Position numbers and translations under genes: made by a program. Shown piece by piece: positions 1 through 50,900 of a DNA stretch of 64,000 bases (position 1 is the first letter of the stretch; every line of letters begins with the position of its first letter). This stretch comes from Xestospongia bergquistia (Eukaryota; Porifera; Demospongiae; Haplosclerida; Petrosiidae). Under the pieces are notes generated by a model, which ran no database searches, was not told where the DNA came from, and saw nothing but the letters and a program-made list of their open reading frames with translations. The stretch is taken from positions 6,119,821 through 6,183,820 of the forward strand of contig OZ014417.1 in NCBI GenBank assembly GCA_963965975.1. Reading direction: 5' to 3'.

Positions 1-26
1 CCGTTGACTCTCACACACTTGTTACA
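1..26 (+). repeat. 3' end of the 5' LTR of gypsy-1
   Basis: The first 26 bases match the last bases of the LTR at 3999-4110 with small differences. Both end in the sequence CTTGTTACA, which sets the LTR boundary at position 26. The rest of this LTR lies upstream of the window. Confidence 0.85.
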
Positions 27-27
27 T

Positions 28-45
28 TGGTGCAGTGGGTAAACT
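28..45 (+). promoter_or_regulatory. putative tRNA primer binding site of gypsy-1
   Basis: Directly after the LTR end, the sequence begins TGGTGCAGTGGG. It starts with the TGG that pairs with the CCA tail of a tRNA, at the expected distance of one or two bases from the LTR. The tRNA species was not identified. Confidence 0.5.
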
Positions 46-64
46 ACTTGTCTCTCAGAACACT

Positions 65-7922: not shown

Positions 7923-8108
7923 TAATTTTTGCCAACTAACCAATATTTGAAGAAACTGAAGAGAGTCCTTGTGCAGTCTTACCTTTGTCATAATCATGAA
8001 TGTATGCATTTTAAAGTGCTCTGACTCTGAGGCTCTATGTTTACTATGGTATATAAAGACAGTATATTATGAGGCGCTGTTTGTGCCAAACTAAATAGTT
8101 TATATATA

Positions 8109-8400
8109 TTTAATTATGTGCTAAGGATTTATAAATACTACAATAAATATAATAAATACTAAAAGAGGTTTATACATGCACATGGGAAATTTATAAATGA
8201 TGTTAGAGATTTATAAAGACTGTACAATTCAAGAAGTTTTTTTTTATAAAATTGTGACAATCGTTACAAAACTCTAATATCATTTATAAATTCCCATGTG
8301 CATTTATAAATCTCTTTTCGTATTCATTATGTTTACTGTAGTATTTATAAATCTCTGTTCGAATTTATTATATTTATCATAGTAGTTACCACATAATTAA
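8109..8400. repeat. large imperfect palindrome
   Basis: The left arm (8109-8208) and right arm (8272-8400) are near reverse complements. Both contain TTTATAAATGAT and CACATGGGAA, and about 60 bases separate them. The same structure is present in the duplicate segment at about 43508-43800. Such fold-back structures are typical of MITEs, but clear target duplications were not found. Confidence 0.75.
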
Positions 8401-8799
8401 CACAGCACACACTGTCACACAGTCAGCAAAGTGAGGTAATATATTATAATACACACACAGAGAGACAGTTGTAGAAGCATGCATGTATAAACACAATTCA
8501 CAGAAAAACAAAGTGAGGCATTGCTGGTGTATGTATAGTGTATGTATAATGTATGTATGTGTATGTATCTTGTTATCAGGATTGTGTGAGTGTTTGTGGT
8601 TTCATGCTATTATGTGTAGATAAGTATGTGTGTTTGTGGTTTCTTGAAATCAGGATTGTGTGTGTGTTGGTGGTTTCTTGTTATCAGCAGTAGATAAATA
8701 TAAAATATATATAAATAATATAGTACATGATATAGTACCTGAAAAAAGCAATGAAGTCTGAATATTGAGTAACATTTCAGGGTTGATCGTAGTGAAGTT

Positions 8800-11073
8800 T
8801 AGTGTGGTAAATCTCAAAACATTCGTGTAGATATAAAGGTGTTTTGCATATCTTACATCGTACTTGAGTTTGTGATTTCTTTTACCTCTAGCCCTACATA
8901 CTTTACATTGCAAGCGGCCACTTGATGGAGTTGTTTTGGGGATTCGTTCTGAGAAAGGTCTCTCAGTCATTCTCAGTGGTATTTCTCGATTTACACAATA
9001 CCGTTTTTCAGGTTGAGGAGTATGTCCTTCAAGAAGTTCTTTCGCTACTGCTAACCAAAAGTCATTTGTTTCTCAGCAGCTATATTATATAGTATCTATG
9101 CATTCACGATATTCAGGTCTATTAGATGAAAGAAGACTCGTTTCCACCATTTCAGTGTCCTATTTCAATACTACAATAATCTGTGAGTGCTATATAATTG
9201 GCTAACCTATGTGAATAGCCATAAGACTGTAACATTTGATCACTAAGATCAACCCCACCCACGTATTGATTATAGTCCTATATCATCACAGGTTTAGTTT
9301 TCTTCAATACCAGTGTGAGCACTTCTTGTTTGCCTCCGTTTGACTAACATATCATCATTGTGAAATGTAGACAACATACTGACCATTTTTTTGTCCCTCC
9401 ACAGCAGGCATATAATTTCTCCACCATTAATTGTTTCACTATATACTTCACCTATAAGTTATGTTACAGCTTTGCATTTTACATTGTATTCAATGGACCT
9501 TTTCCTGGCTTTTCTGACTTGAAGTTGTCAGATAGACCCCTTCTGTCACACCTAACTGTGCCACAGGCTTCGAAGCCATGCCTGTGAAGGCCTGAGAAGA
9601 GTGTGGGAGAGGTATAAAAATTGTCCACATAAATATGGAACCCTTTGTTATTTAGGTCAGAAAGTAGAGTCATCACCACATTATGAACTAGACCATGCTC
9701 AGGAGATGCATTTCATTCTTTTCCTGTATATAAGGTGTATTATGTATGTATATGTGATGTTAATCTTACCTGTGTATAGGTGTAAATTCCACACATAACC
9801 AGTACAAGAGTCAGCAGTCACCCAGACATTGATCCCCCACTTAGTCGGCTTCTTTGACATATACTGAATCCAGCTAAGTCTCCTTTTGAACCCTATCATA
9901 CTCTCATCCACAGATAATTTTTTTTTCAGGTGTGTAAGCTTTTTTGAAAGCTCCAAGAATGACATCCAGTAGAGGTCGAATTTTATACAACTTATCGTAG
10001 TTGTTGCTACATCGTTCTGGCACTTTAGTTGAAGCATTTAGGTGCAAATATTTCATTAATAACTCAAATGTTTGGTCAGACATAATTGCTGTGAACGACT
10101 CATTAGATCTCATAAGATCTAGTTATGTGTACTTCGAATAATAGTACTTTGTGTATTTCTAATTACAAATGCTTAAAAATTATTTCACACTGATAAAAAG
10201 AGCTAATAAGATTCATAGTCATTTAGCTAATAACCTGTACTTTGAATAATACAAATGTACTTTACAATAAAAGCTTTCATATTCATATTCTTTGGTAACA
10301 ATATTCATTCTCTGGTAATAATTTATATAAAAATTGAATATTATTTTAATAATTATACAATAAACATTATTACCAGAGAATGAATATAATTAGCCTTTTT
10401 ATATAATTACCTCAAAGTTGGATAACCAACAACACCCATTGTTATAATTATTGCCAAGAAAGGAACAACTTCATTTCTGGCCATAATGGTTTCTTCTCCA
10501 GTCATTACCACGTGCACAACAATGCATATTGAGGTATTCCTCAGATGATGCAAGCTCTTGTTCAGCAAATTGGACTGTCTCAGTAAAAATGAGGTCTTTC
10601 ACTTCAGAAGTAAAAAAAAAAACTGATTGAAAAACTCCAAAAGTGTGTGCATGGTGCTGTCAGTGATGCCTGGTACAGCAGTAAATGCATGTACTATTAA
10701 AGATTATTATTATTTACAATTTCTGTGTAATAACCATGTATTATATAAGTACAAGTTTACAAGTAGGATGTGTTTGGTCTCGTTGTTGATGACAAGGACC
10801 TATAAGTACTTGCTCAGGAGTAACAGTACTGATAGGTGTAACTGCTGAGAACATTTCAGCTAAAGTAAGTGTAGGTATAGTACGAAGTGAGTGCATGGGG
10901 TAGAAGAATTGAATGGGGGGAGCTGGTGTTGACGGAGCATTAGCATCAGGTATAGCATCAGGTATAGGAATATTGTGGCTGATAGAATGTTCATTATCTG
11001 AATCGGGTGGGGCTAGTACTTGCAAAAATAAGTTGCTTGGCAGGTGTTCATAGTGGCAGATGCAAATTTGCAT
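8800..11073 (-). pseudogene. piggyBac-type transposase, decayed (copy 1)
   Basis: Minus-strand fragments read in the order of a DDE_Tnp_1_7 transposase. An acidic, proline-rich amino-terminus (11073-10741) with SDNE-like residues comes first. A region with ARGNDWR-like sequence follows near 10480-10510. Then come the first catalytic segment SVDESMIGFK near 9900, the second with HIYVDNFYTS near 9620, and the third with an (E)DYNQY...DLSDQM pattern near 9240-9290. A carboxy-terminal cysteine-containing tail (CKVC) lies near 8910. Frameshifts and stop codons separate the pieces, so the copy cannot make a full transposase. Confidence 0.88.
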
Positions 11074-15799: not shown

Positions 15800-17930
15800 T
15801 TCTTCCCAACATAGGCACAAAAGTACCTGTCTGGAGGTTGTTGAATTCATTGTGGGAAACGACAGCCGTAGTGGGATGTGGTTGTTAATTTATAACAAAA
15901 GTGGATAAATGATCTTCCACTGATCTTCCTTCCTTCTCAGATGCTTTCATAGATCTATTAATAGTTTGACCAAAATGTTCAATAACTCCGTTAGAGGAAG
16001 GATGGTATGGTGAGGTACTAGTATGATGAATACAATTCTCTTGACAAAAAAAAGCAAATTCTTGAGAACTGACTACCATTGTCTGTTAATTAGGTAACCC
16101 ATATAAAGAGAAAACATGTTTAAGACTTTCAATAGTTTTAGTACATGAGGTGGATGACATAGAAAATATTTCAGGCCACTCAGAATGAGCATCTATAAGA
16201 AGAAAAACATATGGCTTTGAAACAACATGAATTCCCCATAGGAGACAATTATTCTCAATATTAAAGTCATCTTTACAATTATAAAATGGCTTAAGACAAT
16301 TATTAAAATTGGAAGGCCAACCTGATTTAGTATAATCACCTAATACAGGGTCACAACGAGTAGCTTGTTGTAATTCTGTTGCTGTCACAGGCAATGATTC
16401 AATTTGCTTTATAAAATTATTAAAAATGGTTTGTTCTGATGAAACAGCTATGTTAAGGGCGTTGCTAAGGGTAAATGTGAAAACATGTCTGCATTACTAT
16501 GCTGGCTGGTGAAACAATATTGTATGTTGTAATGACATGCTGATAACAAAATTGAACATCTCTGGAGCCTAGCAGCTGCTAAAGTGGGTATCCCCTTTTT
16601 GGGACTAAATATAAAGGTTAGTAGTTTATGATCAGTTATAATTGTAAAATGCTGTCCATATAAGAACTTGTGAAACTTTTTGATGCCAATTGCAAGAATA
16701 AGGGATAAAGCTTCCTTATCTAGTTGGGAATAATTATGTTCACTTGATAACAATGTACGAGAAGCAAAGGCAACAGGTTTTCCTAAACCATTAGGCATGA
16801 TATGTGAAATGACAGCACTAACATCACAATTTGATGTATCAACTGCTAGAATAATTTGCAGGTCTGGGTTGTAATGAACTAAAACATCAGAATCGACTAA
16901 GAGGGATTTCACTTTTTCAAAGGCTTTCTGACAGTCATAAGACCACTTCCATTTAACATTACTACATAAACTTTGATTAAGAGGGTAGTGGACTAAGGCT
17001 AGATTACAAATAAATTTACTGTAGTACTTAAGTAAACCAATGAAGGATTGTAATTCATGAACATTCCTAGGAGAGGGAGCATTAACAATAGCATCCAACT
17101 TACTCTTTCATGTGTGGATTCAAACAGAGTCTACACAATGTCCTAGGTATTCAACTGAGTCTCTGAGTATTCGCATTTGCTGCTTTCCACACGAACTCCA
17201 TACAATTGTAACCGATGTAACACTTCTTCAAGGTTTTTCAAATGAGCCTCTTGAGTTGCTCCAATGATTAAAGTATTATCAACGTAACATTTGGTATGCC
17301 CTCCAGGATAGACTCCATAGTTTGTTGAAACAGGGCAGGAACAGATGAGGTTCAAAAGGAAGGTAGGTAAACCTGAATAGACCTCTATGTGTATTAATTG
17401 TGACATACTTGCAAGAATCTTCATCTTTGTTGATATGCTGTTCACAAATTCGATTTTGAAAATTGTTGACCACCAGTGAGAGTAGCAAACAACTCTTCTG
17501 GAGCAGGAAGAGGATGTTGGTCCACAATTACAGCCTGATTAACTGTGACCTTATAGTCACTGCATATTTGAATTTTGCCCCCTTTCTTTGGGACTGGCAC
17601 AATATAGGAGCTGCCCAATCACTACTTGTAACTTTTTCCAGCAGTGACTAATCTTTCAAGTTCATTATCAATCACTGTCTTGAGTGCAAATGGAACGGGA
17701 CAAGGTCCATCACCTTTAATGACATAAAGTATGAGAGACTTGTTTTGTGAACACACCTAATAACGGTACTTTTCCTGAGTAAATGTTTTAAGAATAACTG
17801 AAGAGTCAGAGAGGGGTACGTCCGGAAAGAAATGACTATTTGTACTTTCTGAAATTATTGAAACCAATGCCCCTAACAGTAACTCTTATGAGAGCCTCTA
17901 CCCATGACGAAAATATGCTGTTCCTGTTCC
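15800..17930 (-). mobile_element. Ty3/gypsy relic (gypsy-2)
   Basis: On the minus strand, from high to low coordinates, there are a protease-like remnant (near 17850, ALVSIIS), RT amino-terminal sequence (SDWAAPI near 17615; SDYKVTVNQAV near 17565), and an RT catalytic segment CYVDN near 17290. The usual second Asp there is replaced by Asn. RNase H with AVDTSNCDVSAV lies near 16840 and integrase fragments at 16394-15885. The integrase zinc-binding part is deleted. Frameshifts and stops are frequent. No LTRs were recognised. It lies just 3' of relic D and probably helped to truncate it. Confidence 0.88.
16448..17098 (-). pseudogene. gypsy-2 RT thumb / RNase H fragment
   Basis: This is the longest intact piece of gypsy-2, at 216 codons. 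It begins in the RT connection (FIGLLKYYSKFI). It continues through the RNase H fold with the VDTSNCDVSAV active-site region, SQLDKEALSLILAI, and TDHKLLTFIF near residue 156. It ends at HSNADMFSHLPL, the usual RNase H end. Confidence 0.88.
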
Positions 17931-26843: not shown

Positions 26844-26893
26844 ATGATGAGGCTCTTGATTGTTTTATTTTGTTATACAGTTTTGATGGATAA
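26844..26893 (+). other. gene A exon 1: signal peptide
   Basis: [16 protein letters not shown] is strongly hydrophobic and is followed by a phase-2 GTAAGT donor. Gene C (52627-52578) and relic D (15165-15214) have near-identical first exons of the same 50 bp length, which supports this start. A second in-frame ATG follows at once, so either could be used. Confidence 0.85.
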
Positions 26894-27214
26894 GTAAGTT
26901 ATATTATGACACTGTATTATTGTAATCTGTCTTATCATATACAGTTGTCATGCTGTATTACCTTGCTCACACAATGTACCTGTATCTTCAATAACATCAT
27001 ATGTTGGATATTGTGGCTTGTTGAGTGAATCTCTTTGTCCAAATGGGTTAGTATAATACCCTCTTTTAAATATTTTTGTGTGTTTATGATTAAATTTTGA
27101 TTGTAATAAAACATGAATCATGCAATCCACAATAATGTAACAATATTTTCTATAATTTAGATTATTATTGACATGTATTAGAAACTTTTAATATATTTAG
27201 CAACAAAATGTAGT

Positions 27215-27266
<52 letters not shown>

Positions 27267-30200
27267 TTATTTCTAGATAGTACATGCAAATAATATAACA
27301 ACACATTTATATTATAATATAGAACTCACACTATCACAAAATATAAAGTGATTTACATTCTCCAACCTCAATGTTGTCCAGGTTTTGGTCCTAAACCAAA
27401 CTGTCTACGTAAGTTATACTTGTTAATGATGTACACAGAACATTATAATATCATAATATAGCAATTTGCAGTTCCCAATGTGGCATTAACATGGAATGCT
27501 CAGCTCCTGACAATTGTACATGTATCAGTGGATGGAAAGGCAGTGACTGTTTAACACGTATGGTTACCTTTTCTTGTGGAGATATAATTATTGTTTCGTC
27601 TCAACACAGCAATTTGTAGTTCAACATGTGGCACTAACAAAAACTATACAGCTCCTGACAATTGTACATGTATCAGTGGGTGGAAAGGCAGTGACTGTTT
27701 AACACGTATGGTTACCTTTTCTTGTGGAGACATAATTATTGTTTCCTCTCAATGCAGCAATTTGCAGTTCAACATGTGGCACTAACATGAAATGCTCAGC
27801 TCCTGACACTTGTACATGTATCAGTGGATGGAAAGGCAGTAACTGCTTAACACGTATGGTTACATATCCTGAACATATAATTATTGTTTCCTCTTAACAC
27901 AGCAATTTGCAGTTCAACATGTGGCGCCAACAAACAATGTACTGCTCCTGACACTTGTACATGTACCAGTGGATGGAAAGGCAGTAACTGCTTAACACGT
28001 ATGGTTACATATTCTGGACATATAATTGTTGTTTCCTCTTAACACAGCAATTTGCAGTTCAACATGTGGCACTAACAAACAATGTACAGCTCCTGACACT
28101 TGTGCATGTGTCAGTGGATGGAAAGACAGCGACTGCTTAACACGTATGGTTACATTTCCTTGTGGATATATTATAATTGTTTTTCCTCTCAAAACAGCAA
28201 TTTGCAGTTCAACATGTGGTACTAATAAAGAATGTACAGCTCCTGACACTTGTACATGTCTCAGTGGATGGACAGGCATTGACTGCTTAACATGTATTTT
28301 TACATTTTCTTGTGGACACATTGCAAATATTGTTTCCTCTTAACACAGCAATTTGCAGTTCAACATGTGGCCTTAATAAACAATGTACAGCTCCTGACAC
28401 TTGTACATGTGCCAGTGGATGGACTAGCAGTAATTGCTTAACAGGTATTGTTTATGTTGATTTGACAATACCTTTTTAACAGGTATGGTTAAATATTCAA
28501 TGGAACTCATTATATAGCCTAATAACAACACAGCAATTTGTAGTGTTTATGTTGAAATAATATTGATATGATGAATTAATAATTTGCGATAATCAATGAG
28601 ACATTAAATGTGCTGCTATTTTTTATTGACAATAGATATCAATGAATGTTTACTAAACTCATGTCAAGTTCATTGTAGTAATACGAATGGATCATACTAT
28701 TGCTTCTGTGATACATCAACAATCCTTGCTTCTGATGGAATTCATTGCCTAGGTAGATAACAAAGTATCTATGATAAAGATTGCTCTCGATAACTTAAAT
28801 TGTGTTAAGCACATCAGTCTTTTAACATTTTTACACATCTATAAAAGGTTTTTGTAATGACCACATTTATTTAAGGGATGTAAAGAATGTTTTACAATAA
28901 AGTACATAATTAAATATATTGTAGTAATAACTCCTTTTTTTCTCCATAGGAGCAATTCAAGACATCACCTTTTTACAACTTACCAGTACACACTGCATAA
29001 TAACATGGAATCCTCCATTGCAGTACATGCAGTATGGAAGGTTTCATGGTTACATAGTGGTGTGTAATATATCAAATATTAACTCTGTAATAGAATCAGA
29101 TACCACTCAGAAATTAAATATCTCTGTAATATTTCTAAAACCGTTTACTTCATACATTTGCTGTGTCACACCTCAATGGACAACTAATGGAAGAGGAAAA
29201 ACACAATGTATTAATTTTACTACATTACAAGATGGTAAGTAACAGACTAGCATCTATTAGTTAGGTTGTAAACTTCCAAATTAGCTCCTGATGACTCTCC
29301 AGTTAATGTTACCATTAGTGTTGTTAATTCTTCATCTCTTCTAATTCAATGGGAGCCCCCATTGATACATAATGGTATCATTACTCACTATACTCTGTAC
29401 ATCAACTATACTAATGGTAGTGAGATATTTATTAGAACTGTAGATAGTCAGTTCACACTATACCACTTGGAGGGACTGACACCCTATCAAAAGATAGGAG
29501 TAAGTCTCTCAGCTACAACAGGTGGAGGAGAAGGACCTCAGTCAGGTTATGTCTATAATACAACTGAACAGACAGGTTAGATTAATTGGTGGATAAATAT
29601 ACATACAAAAAGAATAGATAGATAAAAAGGGTTTGTAAACATTACAATATCTTTTTCATATGGTGAACTATAGAGCCAGGCACTGTACATCATTTGACTA
29701 TCAATGTGCTATCTAATTCATCTGTCAACATTTCATGGGAGCCACCATTGATATCAAATGGAATTATTTTGTACTACTACATCAGTATTAGGAGTTTGGC
29801 AGAAAATCAATCTGTTGTACTTAGTCTTGAAGAAAACATATACACAATAAACCATCTGAGTAAGAGTTGGTTACATCTTTAATTATATTTTTTTGTAATT
29901 TATATACTATTTATAGCTCCTTATACTCCATATAAAGTTAATGTTTCTGCAGTTACTATTGCTGGTATAGGAGAACCATTGCATAAAGTATTTTTTACTA
30001 AGGAGACAGGTAAATTTTAAAGACATAAGTATATATATTAAATGTATTTTAAAATTAATACTTATATTTTCCATTTTTTACTTTTCTGTAGTCCCCAGAG
30101 TGGCACCGAAGATTAAAGTAGCACAGAGAGTTTCTTTAACTGAAATAATCATAAAAATAAAGCCTCTAACACTAGAAGAGGGAAGAGGAATTGTGACAGG

Positions 30201-33200
30201 ATATTCCTTTAATCTGACCAAATCAACAGACTATTGTGTTGTGGTTGACATGAACAATTTATTAATTGATACTTTTAATACTTCAATTAAAGTAGGGAAT
30301 CTGGATCCACTCTCAAAGTATTGTTTGTCAGTGTCAGCACAAACTAAAGAAGGACATGGTTTGGAATCTCAAAATGTACTAATTCCTGGTTAGTTTAATT
30401 ATAAGTATAACTAAAAATTTTACATCATAGCTTTAAAGTGTATGATAGCAAACAGATTGTTATGTATATGAATGGATTGGATAACTGTTATCTCTGGATA
30501 GTAAGCCATATAACAATGACAAATTTTATAATACAATTTCTTGTTATGATAGCTAAATAACACTGAAAGTAAATTGAATGAGATTACTCAAGTCATAATG
30601 ACAGTGTTGAATAAAGTCTGTTATTGTTCAATAACTTCAGACTATATATCAGATAACACTTTACAATGTGATAGTGAACATACAATACAAATGAGAGCAA
30701 GATTATGTGCTATATCTAATTACACAACATCACAACTATTGACTATATTACAAAATTGGACAAGAAATACTTCAGAAATAATAGTTGATGGACAGAAGTT
30801 AACAGTGATATCAGTTTATTTTCTTTCAAATGATATGAGTGTAATACTTCCAACATCAAATAATAATACAAAAAAGAAAGTGGTTTTATTCAGTGCACTT
30901 GGTTCTGCTGGTGGCTTGTCATTTTTTCTTATTTTTTGTTGCATAATAATATCAGTTTGTATTTTTAAAAAGTTTAAATCAAAAGGAAATTACAAACTGA
31001 AAACAAGGTTTGTCTTTTAATACAATTAAAACAAAATTTTGTCATTACAATATATACAGAACACAAAAAATGAAAGGAAGAAATGATGACAATGAAGATT
31101 TATTAGCAGAAACAAAGTTTCATGATGAGCAGTACTTTGTATGTGATAGTAATGATATTTCTCCATATGGGTAATCAGATATTTATCACAAAAAGATGTT
31201 TAATATGGAGTTTTAAAAGTTTTGTAGATTCTAAAGACTATTATGATGACATAATAATAACTGAAAATTCCAAAAAAAGGTATGTAGGATGTTATATGTG
31301 ATCTTGATGTGAGTAAATGCGATGTACCTGTTTTCGATATTTTGAGTAATATTACTAGCAATTGCATTGCATATTGTCATTTATTAGGCCTCTAATCCCT
31401 ACAAAATTAAGTCAAGGAAAAGTAAATGATAGCAGTTGTACAAGTACAGCTACTAGTGTTTTTGATTCTCCTACTATTACTGGTACAGAAATAAGGCAAG
31501 TAAATAAACTCTCATGTTGTCCTTAGAAATGTTAAATGCCATGATATAATTATAGTATATTTCGGAGTACCCAAAAGAAACCAACTCCTCCTGTTCCTCC
31601 TCCTAAGAAAACAAAGTACAGAAGTCATATACAATGATGATATACACTGTACATATATGCTATAGTAAACATAGAGCCTCTGGTGTAGATCATTTTGAAA
31701 TGGCAAACAATTATGGTTGTGGCAAAGGAATGCCAACAGAAAAGAAACCAACTCCTCCTGCTCCCTCTCCTAAGAAACCGAGGTAAACCAATTATATTCA
31801 AAGATGACATCACTTTACATATATATTATAGTAAACATGGAGGCTCAGATGTAAAACATTTTGAAATGTCAAACAATTATGGTTATGGCAAAGTAATGCC
31901 AGCACAAAAGAAACCAATTCCTCCTGTTCCCCCTCCTAAGAAACTGAGGTAAACCAATTATATTCAAAGATGACATCACTCTACATATATACTATAGTAA
32001 CCATGGAGCCTCAGATGTAGAACATTTTGAAATGGCAAACAATTATAGTTATGGCAAAGTAATGCCAACAGAAAAGAAACCAACTCCTCCTGCTCCCCCT
32101 CCTAAGAAACCGAGGTAAACCAATTATATTCAAAGATGACATCACTTTACATATATATTATAGTAAACATGGAGGCTCAGATGTAAAACATTTTGAAATG
32201 TCAAACAATTATGGTTATGGCAAAGTAATGCCAGTACAAAAGAAACCAATTCCTCCTGTTCCCCCTCCTAAGAAACTGAGGTAAACCAATTATATTCAAA
32301 GATGACATCACTCTACATATATACTGTAGTAAACATGGAGCCTCAGATGTAGAACATTTTGAAATGTCATACAATTATGGTTATGGCAAAGGAATGCCAA
32401 CAGAAAAGAAACCAATTCCTCCTGTTCCCCCTCCTAAGAAACTGAGGTAAACCAATTATATTCAAAGATGACATCACTCTACATATATACTATAGTAACT
32501 ATGGAGCCTCAGATGTAGAACATTTTGAAATGTCATGCAATTATGGTTATGGCAAAGGAATGCCAACACAAAAGAAACCAACTCCTCCTGTTCCCCCTCC
32601 TAAGAAACTGAGGTAAACCAATTATATTCAAAGATGACATCACTCTACATATATACTGTAGTAAACATGGAGCCGCAGATCTAGAAAATTTTGAAATGTC
32701 ATACAATTTTGGTTATGGCAAAGGAATGCTAACACAAAAGAAACCAACTCCTCCTGTTCCCCCTCCTAAGAAACTGAGGTAAACCAATTATATTCAAATA
32801 TGACATCACTCTACATATATACTATAGTAAACATGGAGCCTCAGATCTAGAAAATTTTGAAATGTCATACAATTTTGGTTATGGCAAAGAAATGACTTCA
32901 GAAAGAAAACCAATTCCTCCAGTTTCCCCTCCTAAGAAAGCAGGGTAAAATTAATCATATATAATGACTACATACACTGTACATATATACTATAGTAAAA
33001 ATAGAACCTCAGATCTAGAACAGCTTGAAAAGCCATATAATTACGGTTCTGTCAAAGGAATGTCTTCACAAGTGAAACCACTTCCTCCTATTCCCCCTCT
33101 TAAGAAAACAAGGTAAGCCAATCATATGCAATGATGACAAATACTGTATAATATACTGTAGCAAATACAGAGCCACAGATGTAGAAAATTTTGAAACGCC

Positions 33201-33252
33201 ATATTATAGTTATGGCAAAGAAGTATCTGCACAAAAGCAAGGAATGGTTTAG
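26844..33252 (+). CDS. gene A: EMI-EGF-FN3 single-pass receptor with repeated tail modules
   Basis: Thirty-two exons join with consistent phase to 1392 codons plus stop. They are 26844-26893, 26945-27046, 27323-27408, seven EGF exons (27462-28444), 28636-28752, 28950-29234, 29285-29575, 29674-29859, 29917-30009, 30092-30388, 30439-30500, 30553-31007, 31060-31170, 31220-31279, 31388-31495, 31556-31615 and ten tail exons to 33252. Residues 1-17 form a signal peptide. An EMI-like region follows (to ~79, ending QCCPGFG), then EGF modules 80-303, a DINEC EGF to 342 and four FN3 domains to ~726. A cysteine-containing juxtamembrane region and one membrane helix (~858-885) come next, then KKFKSK as stop-transfer. 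The tail holds tyrosine plus SH3-ligand modules. EMI/EGF receptors such as CED-1/Draper/MEGF10 act in engulfment, but FN3 domains are not part of those, so the function is open. It is probably a cell-surface recognition receptor. Confidence 0.82.
27462..28444 (+). repeat. gene A: seven tandem 96 bp EGF exons
   Basis: The exons are 27462-27557, 27610-27705, 27758-27853, 27903-27998, 28048-28143, 28198-28293 and 28349-28444. Each is exactly 96 bp with phase-1 borders and starts 145-151 bp after the last. Each encodes 32 residues with the spacing C-x3-C-x5-C-x5-C-x-C-x8-C. The second module has Tyr in place of the third Cys, so it would lack one disulphide. Intron sequences are also similar, so the whole exon-intron unit was amplified by unequal exchange. 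Confidence 0.92.
28476..28547 (+). pseudogene. dead eighth EGF exon of gene A
   Basis: After the seventh EGF exon, the array's intron words recur (TTAACAGGTATGGTTAAATATTC). An acceptor with AACACAGCAATTTGTAGT follows at about 28528, then the match stops. This is the stump of a further EGF unit whose body has been deleted. Confidence 0.7.
31220..31615 (+). other. gene A membrane-proximal tail exons with a GC-AG intron
   Basis: Exon 31220-31279 encodes FVDSKDYYDDIIITENSKK. Exon 31388-31495 ends with the donor GCAAGT instead of GT, and the phase closes only if that GC site is used. Exon 31556-31615 (60 bp) carries the first SH3-ligand motif, [10 protein letters not shown]. Between 31318 and 31345 lies a short remnant of an exon present in gene C (48107-48190), which has been lost from A. 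All borders are phase 2. Confidence 0.78.
31666..33252 (+). repeat. gene A: ten tandem 39-residue tail-module exons, 166 bp period
   Basis: The exons start at 31666, 31832, 31998, 32164, 32330, 32496, 32662, 32828, 32996 and 33162. The first nine are 117 bp each with phase-2 borders; the last is cut short by a TAG at 33250-33252. Introns are about 49 bp and near identical. The typical module is a short acidic segment with HFEM, then NNYGYGK, then [12 protein letters not shown]. The PVPPPK core fits the class II SH3-ligand pattern PxxPxK. Tyrosines next to it are possible kinase targets. Units 1-2 and 3-4 share variants, which suggests a 332 bp two-unit duplication. Confidence 0.92.
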
Positions 33253-38115: not shown

Positions 38116-39274
38116 GTTCTTAGTACTTTATATAAGGCTATAAGGTGTAATCATTGGCAGTATATTATTTGAGAGTGGCACATCTGACAGTCTTAAATTT
38201 GGCAGTATGTATTTGTAATTAAAAAACTTTACATTAGACCAAGGGACAAAGGTGAGTATATCATCTAAGAAGAAGGCTAATGGAATTGACAAGCAACTAA
38301 TCAGCATTTCTAGCCTCATACAACCCATAGCTATTCTGGACTGATATAGAGCAATATAAAAGTATAAGGTGTGATCAAAATAAGGCGCACTCAAAATAGT
38401 TAGTAGATGTGGTTACTGAACCTTGATAAATAGGTGTGGTGCTTCTAGTTAGGCTTATATTATGGGCTAACTTATGGCATTAATTAAAACACAAGTAGAC
38501 TTAAAAAGTGTTAATATATTGTCGTAATTTAGTATTGTTTGCACAAATGATGTAACTGACACATTAGCCATTCCTACATTTGCCTCATAAAAATGTCTCA
38601 TTTGCATTTCTAATTCACTATAAGAAACAGATTTGTTGACCTAACAAAACTTTATAAAGTCATTTAAAATAATTTTGTCATCTCCCTTATATTGCTACAA
38701 AAAATTGTAAACACTTGTAAATGTTTGTAATAATAATCGCTATAAAATATATTATGCGAAATCTTTTGTACTCAAGATTCACTAGTTTCAATTGCCTAAT
38801 TTTGCTCAATGAACATCTGGTTCAATTAATATGAGTGAAGATGCTTGGAACATCCTGTAAAAATAGACAAAATCTGTAATGTAGATAAAGATGCTGAAAC
38901 ATGCATATGCAGTTGACGTAGATGAGATGGAATATATGTTGGAAATGCATTGGCAGAGAAGTGTCTATAGCTTGATAATATCAATAAAAGGTTGTGGTAT
39001 GTATCAATAATTTAGAAAAAAAACAACTTCACATTTTACATTTTTATAAATAAATTTATTACTAGTTTGTTCTCAGATTCACTCTACTATGATATGTTAT
39101 AAAAAAACAATTATGTTAAAATGAAAACAAACTCCAGCCTCATTTTCTTTATGTCCAAACCGTTATTTGGCCTTGGAATTTCAGTTTTTCTTTTCACAAT
39201 TCCTATAGTTTATAATAAAATCAGGAGTTACTTTTAGTACATTGACCTTGTTTTGAAGGAACTGAAGGAAGTTC
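38116..39274. other. non-coding interval between the exon-like array and gene B
   Basis: AT-rich sequence without recognisable genes. The 3' end of relic gene B begins at 39275. Confidence 0.5.
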
Positions 39275-42200
39275 TTACTTTTGTGAAGTCAGCCATTTGC
39301 CATAACCATAATTGTATTCCATTTCAAAATGTTCTGTATCTGAGGCTTCATGTTTACTATAGTATATATGTAAAATGTAGATCATCATTGTATATGACTG
39401 GTTTACCTTGCTTTGTTAGAAGGAGGAACAGGAGGAAGTGGTTTATTTTTGACATTCTCAAGTGTGCTATAATTGCATAACTACATTTTCAGGAATAACT
39501 TGAGATTTACTTGCCTTGTTTATATAGCAGTAACAGTAGGAAAGTCATGAACACCAGTATCTGCACCATGCAACTGCTCTCCTTCTCTTTCCTTTGACCT
39601 AATTTTGTAGATGTTGGTGCCCTAGCATTAAAATGACAATATAAAGCTATTTGTAATAATTTATATTACTCATAAATATTGAGGAACATCCATTGTGTCA
39701 CAGTTCATATCATCCATTCCTTCATAGATCATTTCATCCATTTCGTTATACATCATATCTGGCAAATCATGTGTATTTCTTTCAAAATAGGACTAAACAA
39801 TTACTGATTATATGAACAATTTACAAACTTTAGTCCACTGGTAGTTTTTTTAGTCACTGTTATGTCATCTGAGTGCAAGAATAACAAAGTTTATATTAAA
39901 CAAGTATTGTTGATGAATAACATATAATTACCTATTAAGAAAAATACCAATCTTATCATCTACAAGGCCTAGCTCATTGACAAATGTTGTTTCAGTTTGT
40001 GAATAGTAATGATATTCTGTAGAAAAATGACACTTTCTACAGATTGACTTAATGTATTGTTGTGTATGTGTCTTATCATAACCACAAATATTAATTAACT
40101 CTGTGTGTTATTATAGTGTGTTCTTAGAATGTTCTAGAAGGTTCTGGTGTATTATCATTGCTATATAAGTTTTGATTTGTGTACTCTCTCGCTCACTGCT
40201 CAATCCTTTGAATTGTTAATATTATACTTATCTGAATCTTCAGTAAAACTCTCAACATATTCATCATCATCTTTTTTATCTTGCATTTCATATCCTCTGT
40301 ATATACGTAATAATGACATCATCATTATTTGAAATATACTAAATTATGTATACAGCAAACCTTTCTTTTAAATTGTCATTTTCTTTTGATTTGAGTTTCT
40401 TGAAAATATAAACTGATATTATTATACAAAAAATGCAAAGAAACAATGACAAACCTCCAGCAGAACCAATTGCAGTAAATAGAATCATTTCGTTTTTTGC
40501 TTTAGTTTTATTATTTGAAGTTTGATTTGGATTACCACTAGTAAGTACTGGAGTTGTGTCATTTAAAAGTGATGTCACTGTTAACATTTGTTCATTAGCA
40601 AATATTTCTGGATTATCTGCAGTCCAATTTTGTAATATATTCAATAGTAGTGGTGTTATCAAATTAGATATAGCAAATTATCTTGCTCTCATTTGTAATG
40701 TATGTTCACTGTCACATTGTAAAGTGTTATCTGATATGTAGTCTGAAGTTATACTGAACAATAACAGACTTTATTCAACATTGTAATTATGACTTGTTTA
40801 ACCTCATTGAGTTTACTTTCAGTTTTATTTAGCTATTATAACAAGAAATTATATTATAATATTTGTCAATGTTATATGACTTACTATTCACAGATAACAG
40901 TTATCCAATCCATTGATATACAAAACAATCAATTTGTTGTCATACACTTTAAAAAAATAACTTAAAATTTGTTATCTTGTTAAAATAAACTAACCAGGAA
41001 TTAGTATATTTTGAGATTCCAAACCATATCCTTCTTTAGTTTGTGCTGAGACTGACAAACATTATTTTAAAGTGGATCCAGATTTTTTACTTTAATTGAA
41101 GTATTAAGAGTATCTATTAATAATTTGTTGATGTCAACCACAACACAATGATCTATTGATTTGATCAGATTAAAGGAATATCCTGTCAAAATTTCTCTCC
41201 TTTCTTCTAGTGTTAATGGGTTTATTTTCACAACAACTTCAGTTGGAGATATTCTTATTGGTAGCTCAATGTTACTCCAGGAACTGTATAGAAAAGCATA
41301 TAATTAATTGCTTATTATGTTTATGACCTAAAAGTTATACCTGTCTCCTTAGTAAAAAATATTTTATGTGAAGATTCTCCTATACCAGCAATAGTAACTC
41401 CAGAAACATTAACTTCATATGGAATATAAGGATCTATAAATAGTATATAATTTGAAAGAAATTTAATTTAAGATGTAACTAACACAGATTATGTATTAGG
41501 TGATGTACGTTTTCTTCAGTCTTAACTATGAATGATTGATTTACTGTAAAACACCTAATACTGATGTAGTAGTGTAAAATAACTCCATTAGACAACAATG
41601 GTGGTTCCCATGAAATGTTGACAGATGAGTTAGATAGTTTCATCTATCTATTCCTTTTGCATCTGTATCCATCCATCTAAAAAAAATCTGTCTGTTCAGT
41701 TGTATTGTAGACATAGTCTGACTGAGGTCCTTCTCCTCCACAGTTGAAGCTGAGATATTTCTTGATAGGGTGACAGTTCTTCCAGGAAATATACTATGAA
41801 CTGAATATTTACAGTTCTAGTAGATATCTCACTACCATTAGTATAGTTGATGTACAGAGTATAGTGATTAATGATACCATTAGGTATCACTGGAGGTTCC
41901 CATTGAATTTGAAGAGTTGAAGAATTAACAACACTAACTGTAACATTAACTGGAGAGACATCAGGAGCTTAATTGGAATGATATAAACTATTTAGTAATA
42001 GTTAATTTGTCACTTACAATCTTGTAATGTAGTAAAATTAATACAGTGTTTTTCCTGTTCCATTGCTTGTCCATTGAGGTGTGACACAACAAATGTGTGA
42101 AGTAAATGGTTTTAGAAATATTACAAAAACTTCCAATTCCTGAGTGATGTTTGATGTTATTATAGTGTTAGTATTTGATATATTACGCATCACTATGTAA

Positions 42201-42613
42201 GCATCAAAACTTCCATATTGCATGTATTGAAGTGGAGGATTCCATGTTGTTATGCAGTGTGTACTGGTATATTGTGAAAAAATCATGTCTTGAATAGCTT
42301 CTATGCAGAAAAATAGAATTACTAACAGAATACCTTTCAATGTGTGTTTTATTGAAGAACATAATTTATAACATACTTTAGTCATTTTCAAAACATTACT
42401 ATGCATACCCGCATTTAATCAGAACATAATTGCTTATAATGATGTATGAAATTGTTGATATCAGCATTAATTATACTTATACATTATGTAATCTACCTAG
42501 ACAATGAGTTCCATCATTAGCAAGTACACTACATATATCACAGGAGCAGTAATATGATCCATTAGTATTAGTACACTGATGATGCAATAAGTTTTGTGAA
42601 CATTCATTGATAT
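39275..42613 (-). pseudogene. gene B: receptor paralogue, decayed
   Basis: Exons homologous to A and C are recognisable in order on the minus strand: DINEC EGF (42613-42497), FN3-1 (42300-42018), FN3-2 (41969-41689), a truncated FN3-3 (about 41640-41483 and 41433-41341), FN3-4 (41283-40995), membrane exon (40832-40361), tail exons 40296-40228, 40036-39932, about 39880-39831, 39778-39670, about 39620-39522, a 60 bp SH3-ligand exon (39466-39407) and one terminal tail module (39356-39275). Breaks include a 2 bp insertion before the membrane helix near 40755, a nonsense codon near 40678, loss of the FN3-2 donor GT near 41688, and a stop at the end of the YxxM exon. The 5' half (signal, EMI, first EGF) is replaced by the piggyBac-bearing duplication. 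Confidence 0.85.
39670..39778 (-). other. gene B YxxM exon
   Basis: It encodes two YxxM motifs (YNEM and YEGM), the consensus for PI3-kinase p85 SH2 binding when phosphorylated. Compared with gene C (48107-48190), one extra base before the donor creates a TGA stop in frame. If transcribed, the protein would end here and lose the SH3-ligand modules. Confidence 0.65.
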
Positions 42614-42728
42614 CTATTGTCAATAAAACAATAGGAGTACATTTAATGTTATTGTAACATTGATTATTGCAAATTGCTAATATATGTTAAAAGAGTTCTA
42701 CAAAAAAACCCACCACAATGGATATATG

Positions 42729-45700
42729 ATGGTTCTATGTTTTATATCCTTGACAAGTTGATTGGCTAAACAGTCAGCTAAGCAGTAGTCTACAATGGAT
42801 ATAAAGAGTTCTACAAAAAAATCCCACCACAATGGATGAGATTATTGTAATCTCCAATGTTGACATGTGTTAACCTTAGTTAACCATATTTGGATTCCTT
42901 TTCACAGACCTTATCATATGTAAAGAAGTTATATAATTTATGAAAGGCCAAACGAACCATACCCAGCATACATGTTCCTGTTTTCTGCATACATTGTCCA
43001 ACTTATCAGATCTACATGTATATATAAAAAGAGTGTAACTTAATGAGTGAAGTATTTTATAGTATAAATTGTTTATAAACATTATTTGGCACATACAAGT
43101 GACATATCTACTTGTAGCTTCTTCAACTTACAAAGCATCAGCAAAGAATATTATGCATGAAGTAAATTTAGCTCATATTAAAATTAGATATGTGTCAATT
43201 ATTACTGCAAAACAATTTTATTGGATGATACTAACAAACTCAAAATCCAGCAAAATTGTATTACACCAACGATATTAATTGGTGATATAATTTTGGAATT
43301 TTCTATTGTACAATTCCTAGAATTTATAGTAAAATCAAAAGTTAATTTTTGTCAACTAACCAATATTTGAAGAAACTAAAGAGAGTCATAATCATGAATG
43401 TATGCATTTTAAAGTGCTCTGACTCTGAGGCTCCATGTTTACTATGGTATATAAAGACAGTATATTATGAGGTGCCGTTTGTGCCAAACTAAATAGTTTA
43501 TATATATTTAATTATGTGCTAAGGATTTATAAATACTACAATAAATATAATAAATACTAAAAGAGATTTATACATGCACATGGGATATTTATAAGTGATG
43601 TTAGAGGTTTATAAAGACTGTAAAATTCAAGTTTTTTTTATAAAATTGTGACAATTGTTACAAAACTCTAATATCATTTATAAATTCCCATGTGCATTTA
43701 TCAATCTCTTTTCGTATTCATTATATTTACTGTAGTATTTATAAATCTTTGTTCGAATTTATTATATTTATCATAGTAGTTACCACATAATTAACACAGC
43801 ACACACTGTCACACAGTCAGCAAAGTGAGGTAATATATTATAATACACACACAGAGAGACAGTTATAGAAGCTTGCATGTATAAACACAAGAAACAGTAA
43901 AACAAAGTGAGGCATTGCTGATGTATGTATAGTGTATGTATAATGTATGTATGTGTATGTATCTTGTTATCATGATTGTGTGCGTGTTTGTGGTTTCTTG
44001 CTATTATGAGTAGATAAGTATGCATGTTTGTGGTTTCTTGATATCAGTATTGTGTGTGTGTTTGTGGTTTCTTGTTATCAGGAGTAGATAAATATAATTA
44101 TATATAAATAATATAGTACATGATATAGTACCTTAAAAAAGCAATGAAGTCTGAATATTGAGTAACATTTCAGGGTTGATTGTAGTGAAGTTTAGTATGG
44201 TAAATCTCAAAACATTTGTGTAAATGTAAAGGTGTTTTGCATATCTTACATCATACTTGAGTTTGTGATTTCTTTTTACCTCTAGCCCTACATACTTCAC
44301 ATTGCAAGCGGCCACTTGATGGAGTTGTTTTGGGGATTCGTTTCGAGAAAAGTCTCTCAGTCAGTCTCAGTGGTAGTTCTCGATTTACACAATACCATTT
44401 TTCAGGTCAAGGAGTGTGTCCTTCAAGAAGTTCTTTTGCTACTGCTAACCAAAAGTCTAAGTGAGTCATTTGTTTCTCAGCAGCTATATTATATAGTATC
44501 CATGCATTCACAATGCTCAGGTCTATTAGATGAAAGAAGACTCGTTTCCAACATTTCAGTGTCCTATTTCAATACCACAATAATCTGTGAGTGCTGTATA
44601 GTTGGCTAACATATGTAAATAGCCATAAGACTGTAACATTTGATCACTAAGATCAACCACACCCATGTATTGATTATAGTCCTCTATCATCACAGGTTTA
44701 GTTATTTCTTCAATACCAGTGTGAGTACTTCTTGTTTGCCTTCGTTTGACTAACATATCATCATTGTGAAATGTAGACAACATACTGACCATTCTATTGT
44801 CCATCCACTGCAGGCATATAATTTCTCCATCGTTAATTGTTTCACTATATACTTCACCTATAAGTTATGTTACAGTTATGCATTTTACATTGTATTCTAT
44901 GGACCTTTTCCTGGCTTTTCTGACTTGAAGTTGTCAGATAGACCCCTTCTGTCACACCCAACTGTGCCACAGCATTCGAAGCCATGCCAGTGAAGGTCTG
45001 AGAAGAGTGTGGGAGAGGTATAAAAATTGTCGACATAATATGGAACCTTTTGTTATTTAGGTCAGAGAGTAGAGACATCACCACGTTATGAGGTAAGCCA
45101 TGCTCAGGAGATGCATTTCGTTATTTTCCCGTATATAAGGTGTATTATTTATGTATATGTCATGTTAATTTTACCTGTGTATAGGTGGAAATTCCACACA
45201 TAACCAGTACGGGAGTCAGCAGCCACCCAGACTTTGATCCCCCACTTAGTCGGCTTCTTTGACATATACTGAATCCGGCTAAGTCTCCCTTTGAACCCCA
45301 TCATACTCTCATCCACAGATAATTTTTTTCAGGTGTGTAGGTTTTTTTGAAAGCTCCAACAATGAGATCCAGTAGAGGGCGAATTTTATACAACTTATTG
45401 TAGTTGTTGCTACCTCATTCTGGCACTTTAATTGAAAGCATTTAGGTGCAAATATTTCATTAATAACTTGAATCTTCGGCTAGACAAAATTGCTGTGAAT
45501 GACTCATTGTAAAATGGCCACTTCGTACTCCAGTAAGATCTAATTATATGTACTTTGAATAGTAGTACTTTGTGTATTTCTAATTACAAATGCTTAAAAG
45601 TTATTTCACACTGATAAAAAGAGCTAATAAAATTCATAGTCATTTAGCTAATAACCTGTGCTTTGAATAATAGTACTTTGTGTATTTCTAATTACAAATG

Positions 45701-46418: not shown

Positions 46419-47818
46419 CTAACCATCAATGGAAGAAACTGAAGGGAGTCTTTGCTTTTGTGCAGTCAATCCTTTGGCATAATCATAATTGTTTGTCATT
46501 TCAAAATGCTCTGCTTCTGAGTTTTCATCTTTACTATATTATATATATGTACAGTGTATATTATCATTGTGTATGACTGGTTTACCTTGCTTTCTTAGGA
46601 GGGGGAACAGGAGGAATTGATGTCTTTTGTGCAGCTATGTCTTTGCCATAAGCATAATTGTATGGAACTTCAAGCTGTTCTACATTAGAGGTTCCATGCT
46701 TCCTAGAGTATATATGAACAGTGTATATCATTATTGCATATGACTAATTTACCTTGTTTTCTTAGGAGGGGGAACAGGAGGAATTGATGTCTTTTGTGCA
46801 GCTATGTCTTTGCCATAAGCATAATTGTATGGAACTTCAAGCTGTTCTACATTAGAGGTTCCATGCTTCCTAGAGTATATATGTACAGTGTATATCATCA
46901 TTGTATATGATTGATTTACCTTGCTTTCTTAGGAGAGGGAACAGGAGGAATTGATGTCTTTTGTGCAGTCATGCTTTTGCCATAAGCATAATTGTATGGA
47001 ACTTCAAACTGTTCTACATTAGAGGTTCCATGTTTACTATAGTATATATGTACAGTGTATATCATTATTGCATATGACTAATTTACCTTGCTTTCTTAGG
47101 AGGGGGAACAGGAGGAGTTGATGTCTTTTGTGCAGTCATGCTTTTGCCATAAGCATAATTGTATGGAACTTCAAGCTGTTCTACATCAGAGGTTCCATGC
47201 TTCCTATAGTATATATGTACAGTGTATATTATTATTGCATATGACTAATTTACCTTGCTTTCTTAGGAGGGGGAACAGGAGGAATTGATGTCTTTTGTGC
47301 AGTCATGCTTTTGCCATAAGCATAATTGTATGGAAGTTCAAACTTTTCTACATCAGAAGTTCCATGTTTACTATAGTATATATGTACAGTGTATATATAT
47401 CATCATTGTATATGACTGATTTACCTTGCTTTCTTAGGAGGGGGAACAGGAGGAATTGATGTCTTTTGTGCAGTCATGCTTTTGCCATAAGCATAATTGT
47501 ATGGAAGTTCAAACTTTTCTACATCAGAAGTTCCATGTTTACTATAGTATATATGTACAGTGTATATATATCATCATTGTATATGACTGATTTACCTTGC
47601 TTTCTTAGGAGGGGGAACAGGAGGAATTGATGTCTTTTGTGCAGTCATGCTTTTGCCATAAGCATAATTGTATGGAAGTTCAAACTTTTCTACATCAGAG
47701 GCTCCATGTTTACTATAGTATATTGTACTTTTGTATCATCATTGTAGACTTGGTTTACCTTGCTTTTATAGGAAGGTTGACAGAAGGAATTGGTTGCTTT
47801 TGTTTATTCTCCATTGAA
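46419..47818 (-). repeat. gene C: tail-module exon array
   Basis: A 60 bp first exon (47818-47759) is followed by seven 117 bp exons starting at 47712, 47541, 47370, 47203, 47036, 46869 and 46702, and a 115 bp terminal exon (46533-46419). The period is 171 bp among the first three and 167 bp afterwards. Modules read like ...[10 protein letters not shown]...[13 protein letters not shown], keeping the tyrosines and the PVPPPK core. The terminal module lacks the proline motif. Within-array identity is higher than to gene A, so the array expanded separately. Confidence 0.92.
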
Positions 47819-47908: not shown

Positions 47909-50900
47909 TTATATATAATACAAATTTGTAGCTACAATCTGAAAGTTTATTAACTTGCCTTGTTTTTGTAAGATTAGTTGAATCATCTTCATAAGTAGCT
48001 GCATTTGTACTATTGCTTTCCTGAACTTTCGTTTGACCTAATATTGTAGATACTGGTACTCTAAGATTAAAACAATATTAATAGACACATTACTGATTAT
48101 TATTACTCAAAATATTGAGGAACATCTATCATTTCATAGTTCATATCATCCATCCTTTCATAGGTCATATCTTGTCGATCAATCATATATCTTTTAAAAA
48201 GGTACACAGAAGTTACTCATATTACTAGAAATATGATACATACATTTCTTTGGAATTTTCAGTCTCTTTAATGTTAGTAACATACTCATTATCGATCTCA
48301 GTATCTACAACGCTAAAATCATACATATTAAAACATACTTTGTGTCAAAGAATCTCTCATTACCTATTTGAAGAAAGACCATTGTTATCATGATCACACA
48401 CATTGTATAACTCATTATGAAGTCTTCTTCCTGTTGCCAAATAGTAATGATCACTATTATTATCTTCTCTTTCTTGATTTTTGTGTATTCTGTATACATT
48501 GTAATAATATTATTCTTATTTGAAATTATGTGTACAACAAACCTTGGTTTTACATTGTTGTTTCTTTTTGATTTAAACTTCATGAAGGTACAAAATGATA
48601 TTATTATACAGCAAACACAAAGAAACAATAACAAACCACTAGCAGAACCAATTGCACTGAAGAGTGTCACTTTGCTTTTCATGTTACTTTCATTATTTGA
48701 TGTTCGATTGTCATTTGACAGAAAATAAACTGATATCACTCTTAACACCTGTCCATCAACTATTATTTCTGAAGTATCTCTTGTCCAATTTTGTAATATA
48801 ATCAATAGTTGTGATGTTGTGAAATTAGATATAGCAGATAATCTTGCTCTCATTTGTATTGTATGTTCATTGTCACATTGTAAAGTGTTATCTGATATAT
48901 AGTCTGAAGTTATTGAACAATAACAGACTTTATTCAACACTTTAATTATGACTTGAGTAATATCAGTGAGTTTACTTTCAATCTTATTTAGCTATTATAA
49001 AAAGAAATTGTATTATAATATTTGTCATTGTTATATGACTTACTATCCACAGATAACAGTTATCCAATCCATTCATATGCATAACAATCACTTTTCTGTC
49101 ATATACTTTAAAGAAATAACTTTAAAATTCTTATCATATTTAAAAATAAACTAACCAGGAATTATTTTTTTTTGAGATTCCAAACCATGTCCTTCTTTAG
49201 TTTGTGCTGACACTGACAAACAATATTTTGAGAGTGGATCCAGATTTCCTACTTTAATTGAAGTATTAAGAGTATGTACTAATAATTTGTTCATGTCAAC
49301 CACAACACAATGATCAATTGATTTGGTCAGATTAAAGGAATATCCTGTCACAATTCCTCTCCCCTCTTCTAGTGTTAGTGGCTTTATTTTCACAACAACT
49401 ACTGTTGGAAAAACTCTCTGTGCTAGCTCAATGTTTGGAGCTACTCTAGGTACTACATAGAAGAGTTTATATAATTGTTTAAAATACTTGTATCTTAAAG
49501 TTTATACCTGTCTCCTTTGTAAAAAATATTTCATGTGATGATTCTCCTATACCTGCAACAGTAACGGCAGAAACATTTACTTCATATGGAGTATAAGAAT
49601 CTATAGATCCATAAAAATCGAAAAACAATTCTGTTAAGATGTATAACTAACTCAGATAATATATTATGTGATATAAGTTTTTTTCAGTCTTAAATATGAC
49701 AGACTGATTTGCTGCCAAACTTCTAATACTGATGTAGTAGTGTAAAATAACTCCATTTGGCAACAATGGTGGTTCCCATGAAACTTTGACAGATGAATTA
49801 GATAGCACATTGACAGTCAAATGATGAATAATGCCTGGCTCTAAAATTGACATATGAAAGAATAATTTCTACGAAGACATTTCATCTATCTATTCCTCTT
49901 GTATATGTATCCATATATCTATCAATCTAACCTGACTGTTCAGTTGTATTGTAGACATAGTCTGACTGAGGTCCTTCTCCTCCACTAGTTGTAGCTGAGA
50001 TACTTATTCCAACCTCTTGATAAGGTGTCAGTCCCTCCAGGAGATATATTGTGAAATGACTATCTACAGTTCTAGTAGATATCTCACTACCATTAGTATA
50101 GTTGATGTACAGAGTATAGTGAGTAATGATGCCATTAGGTATCAATGGAGGCTCCCATTGAATTAGAAGAGTTGAAGAGTTAACAACACTAACTGAAACA
50201 TTAACTGGAGAGTCATTAGGAGCTACATTGGAAGGTTACAACCTAATTAACAATAAGTAATCTGTCACTTACCATCTTGTAATGTAGTAAAACTAATACA
50301 CTGTGTTTTTCCTATTCCATTAGTTGTCCATTGAGGTGTGAGACAGCAAATATATGAAGTAAATGGTTTTAGAAATATTAAAGACAAATTCAATTTCTGA
50401 GTGACATTTGATGTTATTATAGTGTCAGTATTTGAATCATTACACATCACTATGTAACCATCAAAACTTCCATATTCCACGTATTGAAATGGAGGATTCC
50501 ATGTTATTATACAATGTGTACTAGTAAGTTGTGAAAAGGTCATTTTCTGAATAGCTCCTATGGAGAAAAAAAGATGTATTAATAGAATACCTTTTTTGTG
50601 CGTGTTCCAGTGAAGATCATACATAATTTATAACATACTTCAGTCAATATGTGATCATTTTAAAACATTCCTACACTTACATACATAAAATATTTAATAA
50701 TCAGGAGCTAATGTCATATTGAGTTGTTGATATCAATATTACTCATACTTTCTAGTGTTGTGTTAGTTATGAAATTTATTTCTAATTTATTTATAGTTAG
50801 TTTTTTAGTCCCTGTAAAATATTTTAGTTAGTTATAGTTATTTTTTTTATTGCTCATCTAGTTTTAGTTTATTTATAGTTATTTAACTATAAATCTACAG

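Follow-up and report, generated by a model that had tools for sequence, protein, structure and literature searches.

What kind of protein ends in a run of near-identical short exons, and what could such a run do for it? The question is raised by a locus of the demosponge Xestospongia bergquistia (assembly GCA_963965975.1, contig OZ014417.1, positions 6,119,821 to 6,183,820 of the forward strand; this whole stretch of 64,000 nucleotides (nt) is called the window below), in which a gene that we name gene A closes with a tandem array of exons, each combining a tyrosine segment with a proline core. As read from the genome, the array is coding sequence behind the transmembrane (TM) helix of a predicted single-pass receptor, which would place the modules inside the cell, and the tails of gene A and its paralogs follow one plan: a leader exon with an SH3-ligand-like core, N modules and a terminal exon with a tyrosine, with N between 0 and 10 and phase 2 kept throughout. 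In a tail with N modules, proline cores and NxxY segments would thus alternate, with up to N+1 of each. The sequences display a modular coding tail in which Y19, P31 and P34 of the module are kept and copy number differs between paralogs; at a probability of roughly 0.55, we read it as a multivalent docking tail that works like those of Draper, Cas and nephrin while belonging to none of these families.

Gene A and its tail array

The model of gene A was built by hand and then checked by script, with splice sites inferred, and consists of the following features (all on the plus strand, in window positions; TRF, Tandem Repeats Finder).

26844..33252, plus: gene A, predicted type I membrane receptor, 31 exons, 1358 amino acids (open spliced frame; Pfam fn3 and EGF families)
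26844..27408, plus: exons 1-3, signal peptide recognised by eye, together with an N-terminal stretch that contains cysteines and ends in CCPGFGPKPNC (no Pfam EMI match)
27462..28444, plus: exons 4-10, seven EGF exons of 96 nt each, phase 1, introns of 49-55 nt (gene model, Pfam)
28636..28752, plus: exon 11, calcium-binding-type EGF by eye (gene model)
28950..30388, plus: exons 12-16, FN3 domains in four stretches (gene model, Pfam)
30593..31007, plus: exon 17, membrane-proximal domain and TM helix (gene model; matches across the genome)
31060..31495, plus: exons 18-20, membrane-near tail exons, phase 2 (gene model; matches in paralogs)
31556..31615, plus: exon 21, the leader, 60 nt, SH3-ligand-like core only (gene model, profile reading)
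31666..33112, plus: exons 22-30, nine modules of 117 nt (39 amino acids) each, NxxY segment and proline core (gene model, TRF)
33162..33252, plus: exon 31, the terminal exon, tyrosine segment only, stop TAG at 33250-33252 (gene model)

All exons are open and flanked by AG acceptors and GT donors, except for a GC donor at exon 20, whose sequence, GGCAAG, was found again in four of seven paralogs inspected; this donor and the start of exon 17 are the least certain points of the model. Every junction from exon 17/18 to exon 30/31 is in phase 2, in agreement with an initial annotation of the window that had described the tail exons as phase-symmetric, and this symmetry makes alternative splicing possible. 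The same annotation had counted ten exons, nine of them of 117 base pairs (bp), separated by introns of 49 bp. Its array coordinates and counts hold once the terminal exon is taken as the tenth repeat: the nine 117-nt modules are there, the tenth exon is the shorter exon 31, and the intron length is nearly uniform, at 49 nt between modules other than 51 nt after exon 29, with 50 nt after the leader. The array repeats with a period of 166 bp (one step being 168) and was detected independently by TRF (31572-33220, period 166, 9.9 copies, 88% matches).

Three features of gene A, its hydrophobic N-terminus, the single TM helix of exon 17 and the basic stretch that follows this helix, would place the modules inside the cell, in keeping with the earlier description of the array as a cytoplasmic tail. 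In an AlphaFold model of exon 17 made with two sequences, which had a mean predicted local distance difference test score of 46 overall, the TM helix alone was confident. Outside the membrane, a Pfam scan found four FN3 stretches and several EGF families, including EGF_PEAR1L for the EGF-like (NIM type) repeats (72.1 bits versus a cut-off of 37.5). No kinase family was matched in gene A at E up to 0.1, which points to a tail without an intracellular kinase domain. The N-terminal piece had no Pfam EMI match at E up to 10, in a scan for which the HMMER filters discard most matches above about 0.1; a likeness to EMI persists by eye in its CCPGFG motif, and an EMI assignment was considered and dropped for want of Pfam support. 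A SEA domain was considered as well and likewise found no match in the Pfam scans. The EGF part (27462-28444) likewise consists of tandem exons, with more than a dozen consecutive EGF matches in one paralog (6039391-6044402 of C7, our label for the contig of the gene A family).

Conserved tyrosine and proline positions in the module

The leader holds the proline core alone, the terminal exon the tyrosine segment alone and each module both, so that the pairing of a tyrosine with an SH3-ligand-like core, proposed at the outset, is found in sequence. Weighted by array, conservation in 66 open 117-nt modules (19 arrays) was highest at Y19 (0.99), P34 (0.96), S6 (0.94), P31 (0.93), N16, K38 and E9 (0.92 each) and Y17 (0.90), and reached 0.80 at K28, the basic residue at the class I position. 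Replacement rates per site across the 19 arrays were lowest at Y19 (0.009), P34 (0.047), N16 (0.054) and E9 (0.057), followed by S6 (0.058), K38 (0.064), D7 (0.069), P31 (0.070) and S1 (0.075), and rose to as much as 0.60 at other sites. Of 155 profile hits, 95 modules and terminal exons allowed scoring of the acceptor as well as the tyrosine region; among these, position 19 was Tyr in 90, position 16 Asn in 86 and position 17 Tyr in 70. The tyrosine segment first described as NNYGYGK is therefore conserved in its second tyrosine, Y19, which lies in NxxY, whereas the first was not Tyr in 25 of the 95.

Motifs were counted in 72 modules selected for PP near their end and again in the unfiltered set of all 79 resolved exons, which restores the seven dropped by this filter, some of them terminal exons. 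NxxY occurred in 68 of the 72 (weighted 0.95, shuffle 0.13) and in 73 of the 79. NPxY was absent from all 72, a count outside which exons 18-20 of gene A lie, as were FPPPP-type motifs, PPxY and motifs of the immunoreceptor tyrosine-based inhibitory (ITIM) type; YxxPhi occurred in 18.

In modules, the proline core fits SH3 ligands of class I better than those of class II. The class I pattern [KR]xxPxxP was present in 54 of the 72 modules (55 of 79 unfiltered) and its strict form, basic-x-Phi-P-x-Phi-P, in 51 (weighted 0.74, shuffle 0.02), levels reached by 0 of 500 shuffles in either case, and the strict form was kept in 52 of the unfiltered 79 (weighted 0.61, shuffle 0.02). The class II pattern PxxPx[KR] occurred in 47 of the 72 (weighted 0.53 versus shuffle 0.35; 1 of 500 shuffles as high) and in 47 of the 79, a count equalled by 12 of 500 shuffles. 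Because the strict class I form stands far above its 2% shuffle level and class II modestly above its own, K-P-I-P-P-V-P appears to be the better-kept core in modules, and the recount without the PP filter weakens this case a little and does not overturn it. The leaders do not decide between the classes (class I in 7, class II in 8 and neither in 2 of 14, taken from a set of splice boundaries that is partly wrong for degenerate modules). The original proposal that PVPPPK is a class II ligand stands as to an SH3-ligand-like core, with class I the better fit in modules. Src-type kinases prefer class I ligands of the basic-x-Phi-P-x-Phi-P form.

A paralog family with differing module numbers

The array is part of a family. 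A DNA search of the whole genome with the array gave at least 54 matches, all on C7 (40 of 52 candidates scored), a two-module protein query placed 131 of 131 matches there (all 134 candidates scored), and 64 of the 65 matches to the TM exon lay on C7, the other being a weak one on contig C12 (all 72 candidates scored). Thirty-five of the TM exon matches, among them one at 6416798 with a TAA inside, cover at least 131 of 138 residues, and two more, at 5887448 and 6160186, are near-complete; the family lies in two stretches of C7, at about 3.47-4.00 and 5.66-6.56 megabases (Mb), and gene A appears to be one of about 37 recognisable family genes on this one contig. Two further copies lie in the window.

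46420..47818, minus: tail of gene B, with leader, seven 117-nt modules and terminal exon (3' end approximate)
48548..48952, minus: membrane-proximal and TM exon of gene B, 80% identical to gene A exon 17
39245..42418, minus: third family copy, in which leader and terminal exon enclose no full module and the TM exon match contains a TAA

We read 28 tails (25 of the 35 near-full TM matches, the genes at 5887448 and 6160186, and that at 5658130, a partial TM match) by putting in order the profile hits downstream of the TM exon, the first hit being the leader if it had the proline end only, the last the terminal exon, and the rest modules, with splice sites intact or not. A leader was present in 27 of the 28 tails, and because the order of leader, modules and terminal exon recurs in these, the array of gene A is far from chance. 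Module number was 0 in six tails, 1 in five, 2 in two, 3 in five, and 4, 5 and 6 in two each, with 7 (gene B), 8, 9 (gene A) and 10 in one gene each; in the paralog at 6267931, short hits with PxxP alone lie between the modules as well. Some family copies look broken: the TM exon match at 6160186 contains a TAA, and an in-frame stop interrupts one module of the gene at 5696986. Gene A, gene B and two other C7 loci, L004 and L019, have large arrays in which frames, splice sites and phase are maintained. Four of 95 exons (in L007, L014, L031 and L035) have lost the canonical acceptor, and all four retain an in-phase AG at codon 18 within the exon, versus 38 of the other 91 (Fisher 0.035); use of this AG would yield a 66-nt exon, a lead from cases that are few and partly related. 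At two further loci, L012 (near 5.671 Mb) and L024 (near 5.790 Mb), there are two exon 20-equivalent matches each, and here membrane-near tail exons seem to have been duplicated too.

Likeness among units bears on how module number changes. Units 23 and 25 of gene A are 99% identical over 166 bp without gaps, pairs at lag 2 are slightly the most alike (88.8 versus 87.2 at lag 1), and likeness to the other units falls to 63-76% in the last two; in L004, ungapped units 4 and 7 are 99% identical and the last two stand at 77-84% and 69-72%. Over all arrays, the nearest relative of a module lay in its own array for 42 of 61 modules (label shuffles: mean 4.3, maximum 14). Unequal exchange is expected to homogenise the interior of an array and leave its edges diverged, whereas the units of gene B are 83-99% alike throughout, its edges not diverged. 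Together these patterns suggest that array length changes among paralogs as by unequal exchange of whole exons, and the initial idea that module number can change by unequal crossing-over is supported by the range of 0-10 across 28 paralogs and by the exchange-like similarity, with gene B as the discordant case. The final modules of L004 and of L019 resemble one another by position (96%), and gene A exon 24 is 97% like modules of L019, so that exchange between different family genes is possible as well.

A proposed multivalent docking tail and its alternatives

In a docking tail of this plan, each proline core would dock the SH3 domain of a Src-type kinase or adaptor, and the docked protein would thereby sit beside the next NxxY segment. 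Ligand-driven clustering would then lead to phosphorylation of many tyrosines, by Src-type or co-clustered receptor kinases, and the phosphorylated tyrosines would be read by SH2 or PTB proteins. Module number would set valency, and hence the threshold of clustering and of signalling, as valency sets clustering for nephrin (PMC4238058). Relatives that bear a kinase and share the EGF type may act in trans.

Candidates for such partners are encoded in the genome. At least five tyrosine kinase matches (129 of 1201 candidates scored) lie in the C7 cluster at 6.33-6.51 Mb, and the two loci read there, L032 and L033, share with the gene A family the N-terminal stretch and the EGF type, their EGFs being 68-81% identical to one EGF of gene A; they differ from it in having two EGFs, a Ser/Thr/Pro linker and a kinase, and a TM segment is present in both (all by eye). 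L032 contains no tail module and the two hits at L033 belong to an adjacent gene, so neither kinase gene has one. A run on the minus strand of contig C6 (1.62-1.70 Mb) holds 10 kinase, 10 SH2 and 14 SH3 matches among the matches listed, the make-up expected of Src-type kinases, as of tandem SH3-SH2-kinase genes, and is a candidate source of such kinases. PTB domains gave six matches in the genome. A bolder extension joins these elements into a genetically adjustable valency gauge, in which one ectodomain type would be common to co-clustered receptors and kinase-bearing partners, kinase-less tails would be phosphorylated in trans by these kinases, and a threshold given by module number would differ between genes and perhaps individuals, serving as a repertoire for self-marking or microbe sensing; we regard it as improbable.

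Similar systems differ from gene A in at least one respect each. In the substrate domain of p130Cas, Src SH3 docking occurs next to repeated substrate tyrosines; the protein is cytosolic and uses YxxP, whereas one of 72 gene A family modules contains that motif, so that no repeated YxxP is present. We know of no tandem exon array in nephrin nor, more generally, of a receptor in which whole, interchangeable exons supply the docking sites. The nephrin-Nck-N-WASP system shares with our reading of gene A a membrane receptor in which tyrosine valency sets clustering, nephrin clustering depending on both tyrosine and SH3 valency (PMC4238058), and is unlike it in that the proline motifs are in N-WASP there and in the receptor itself here. 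MEGF10, Draper and CED-1 (with PEAR1) are likewise single-pass proteins with EGF-like repeats and a kinase-less tail with tyrosine motifs, Src-family kinases being given as the writers for Megf10 and Draper (PMC8092387); gene A, in contrast, has FN3 domains, no Pfam EMI match, NxxY in place of NPxY, no ITIM-type motif in its modules and a tail that is a repeat array with proline cores. At best, gene A would work like these systems; it is filed in no named family because it departs from each in such a feature (EMI and NPxY, proline motifs in the receptor, or a YxxP array). The absence of a named receptor family, noted at the start, is consistent with two protein searches: the tail had no match at E 0.001 among the best 7996 candidates by shared words, in a protein set that may hold few sponge-like genomes, and residues 640-940 had no homolog among 1848 candidates scored. 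No title on such a tail or gene family was found in the literature searched (titles and abstract starts).

Several results weigh against a docking tail. The pooled ratio of replacement to silent substitution rates (dN/dS) between the 19 arrays was 0.93 (codon bootstrap 0.63-1.41), which suggests that most module positions are barely constrained and that constraint falls on few sites; the TM exon gave 0.71 (25 copies), below the module arrays. Six of the 28 tails are without any full module. Composition alone gives 0.35 for class I and 0.35 for class II in shuffles, 18 of the 72 modules lack the class I core, as do 7 of the 14 leaders, and neither SH3-ligand class is matched in 2 leaders. The PP filter behind the 72-module set favours proline motifs, and a full exon with both splice sites could be resolved for only 83 of the 155 profile hits. 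The context of Y19 fits none of the textbook SH2 consensuses counted (YxxP 1, YxxM 1, YxN 4 and YxxQ 0 of 72).

Some of these results are what a largely neutral, satellite-like expansion would produce, in which harmless symmetric exons in a disordered tail grow and shrink in number by unequal exchange and the number has no function: dN/dS near 0.93, module numbers that vary widely down to none in six tails, and homogenised interiors with diverged edges in gene A and L004, as blind exchange predicts. Yet Y19, N16, P31 and P34 are kept across 19 arrays while their neighbours change freely, frames, splice sites and phase are intact in the four large arrays, and five L019 units differ by 3 replacement versus 5 silent variants, and we consider neutral expansion rather unlikely. 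The opposite departure from constraint, a rapidly evolving recognition tail whose modules are under diversifying selection (for example, with a different SH3 domain or other reader per module, or as a target of pathogens), draws on gene A, whose near-identical exons 22-28 show 25 replacement variants, 1 silent variant and 4 intron variants (binomial P 0.009 for the 25:1 excess; Fisher versus silent plus intron, 0.0005) and whose nine modules have a dN/dS of 2.27 (codon bootstrap 1.30-5.60). The excess is confined to this one array of four, with replacement:silent counts of 21:5 in L004 (8 of 10 units), 13:2 in gene B (7 units) and 3:5 in L019 (5 of 7 117-nt units) giving no significant excess, and the subsets of gene A, L004 and L019 were picked by us for likeness, among units that share history, so that variants are not independent; diversifying selection in gene A is accordingly a lead and no proof, and as an account of the tail it seems to us improbable.

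The motifs also admit a cytoskeletal or endocytic linker, whose prolines would bind profilin, EVH1, WW or endocytic SH3 domains and whose NxxY would be an unphosphorylated PTB-type uptake signal. NxxY in nearly every module, the presence of PTB domains in the genome, leaders that match class II as often as class I, and the possibility of NPxY-PTB binding in vitro without phosphate, cited for CED-1 (PMC8092387), are all compatible with this function, whereas the absence of FPPPP-type, PPxY and NPxY motifs and the conservation of K28 at the class I position point away from it, leaving a linker doubtful in our judgement. Set against these alternatives, the docking tail is the reading that we prefer. 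That multivalent tyrosine and SH3-ligand motifs control clustering is already known, for example for nephrin; the paralogs add a natural series, from 0 to 10 modules, in which the link between valency and signalling, and selection on valency, are directly testable, and kinases with the same EGF type, if co-clustered, would bear on the diversification of animal tyrosine signalling.

Elsewhere in the window, open frames at 8-3600 (plus strand) and 16089-17538 (minus strand) resemble, by eye, pieces of Ty3-type retroelements, and a frame at 9702-10037 (minus strand) resembles a piece of a piggyBac-type transposase. The stretches 6915-9924 and 42724-45329 are two copies of one sequence, about 35.4 kb apart, with most blocks 92-96% alike; one part, 7171-7921, is a doubled unit of 384 bp in which TRF reports 100% matches.

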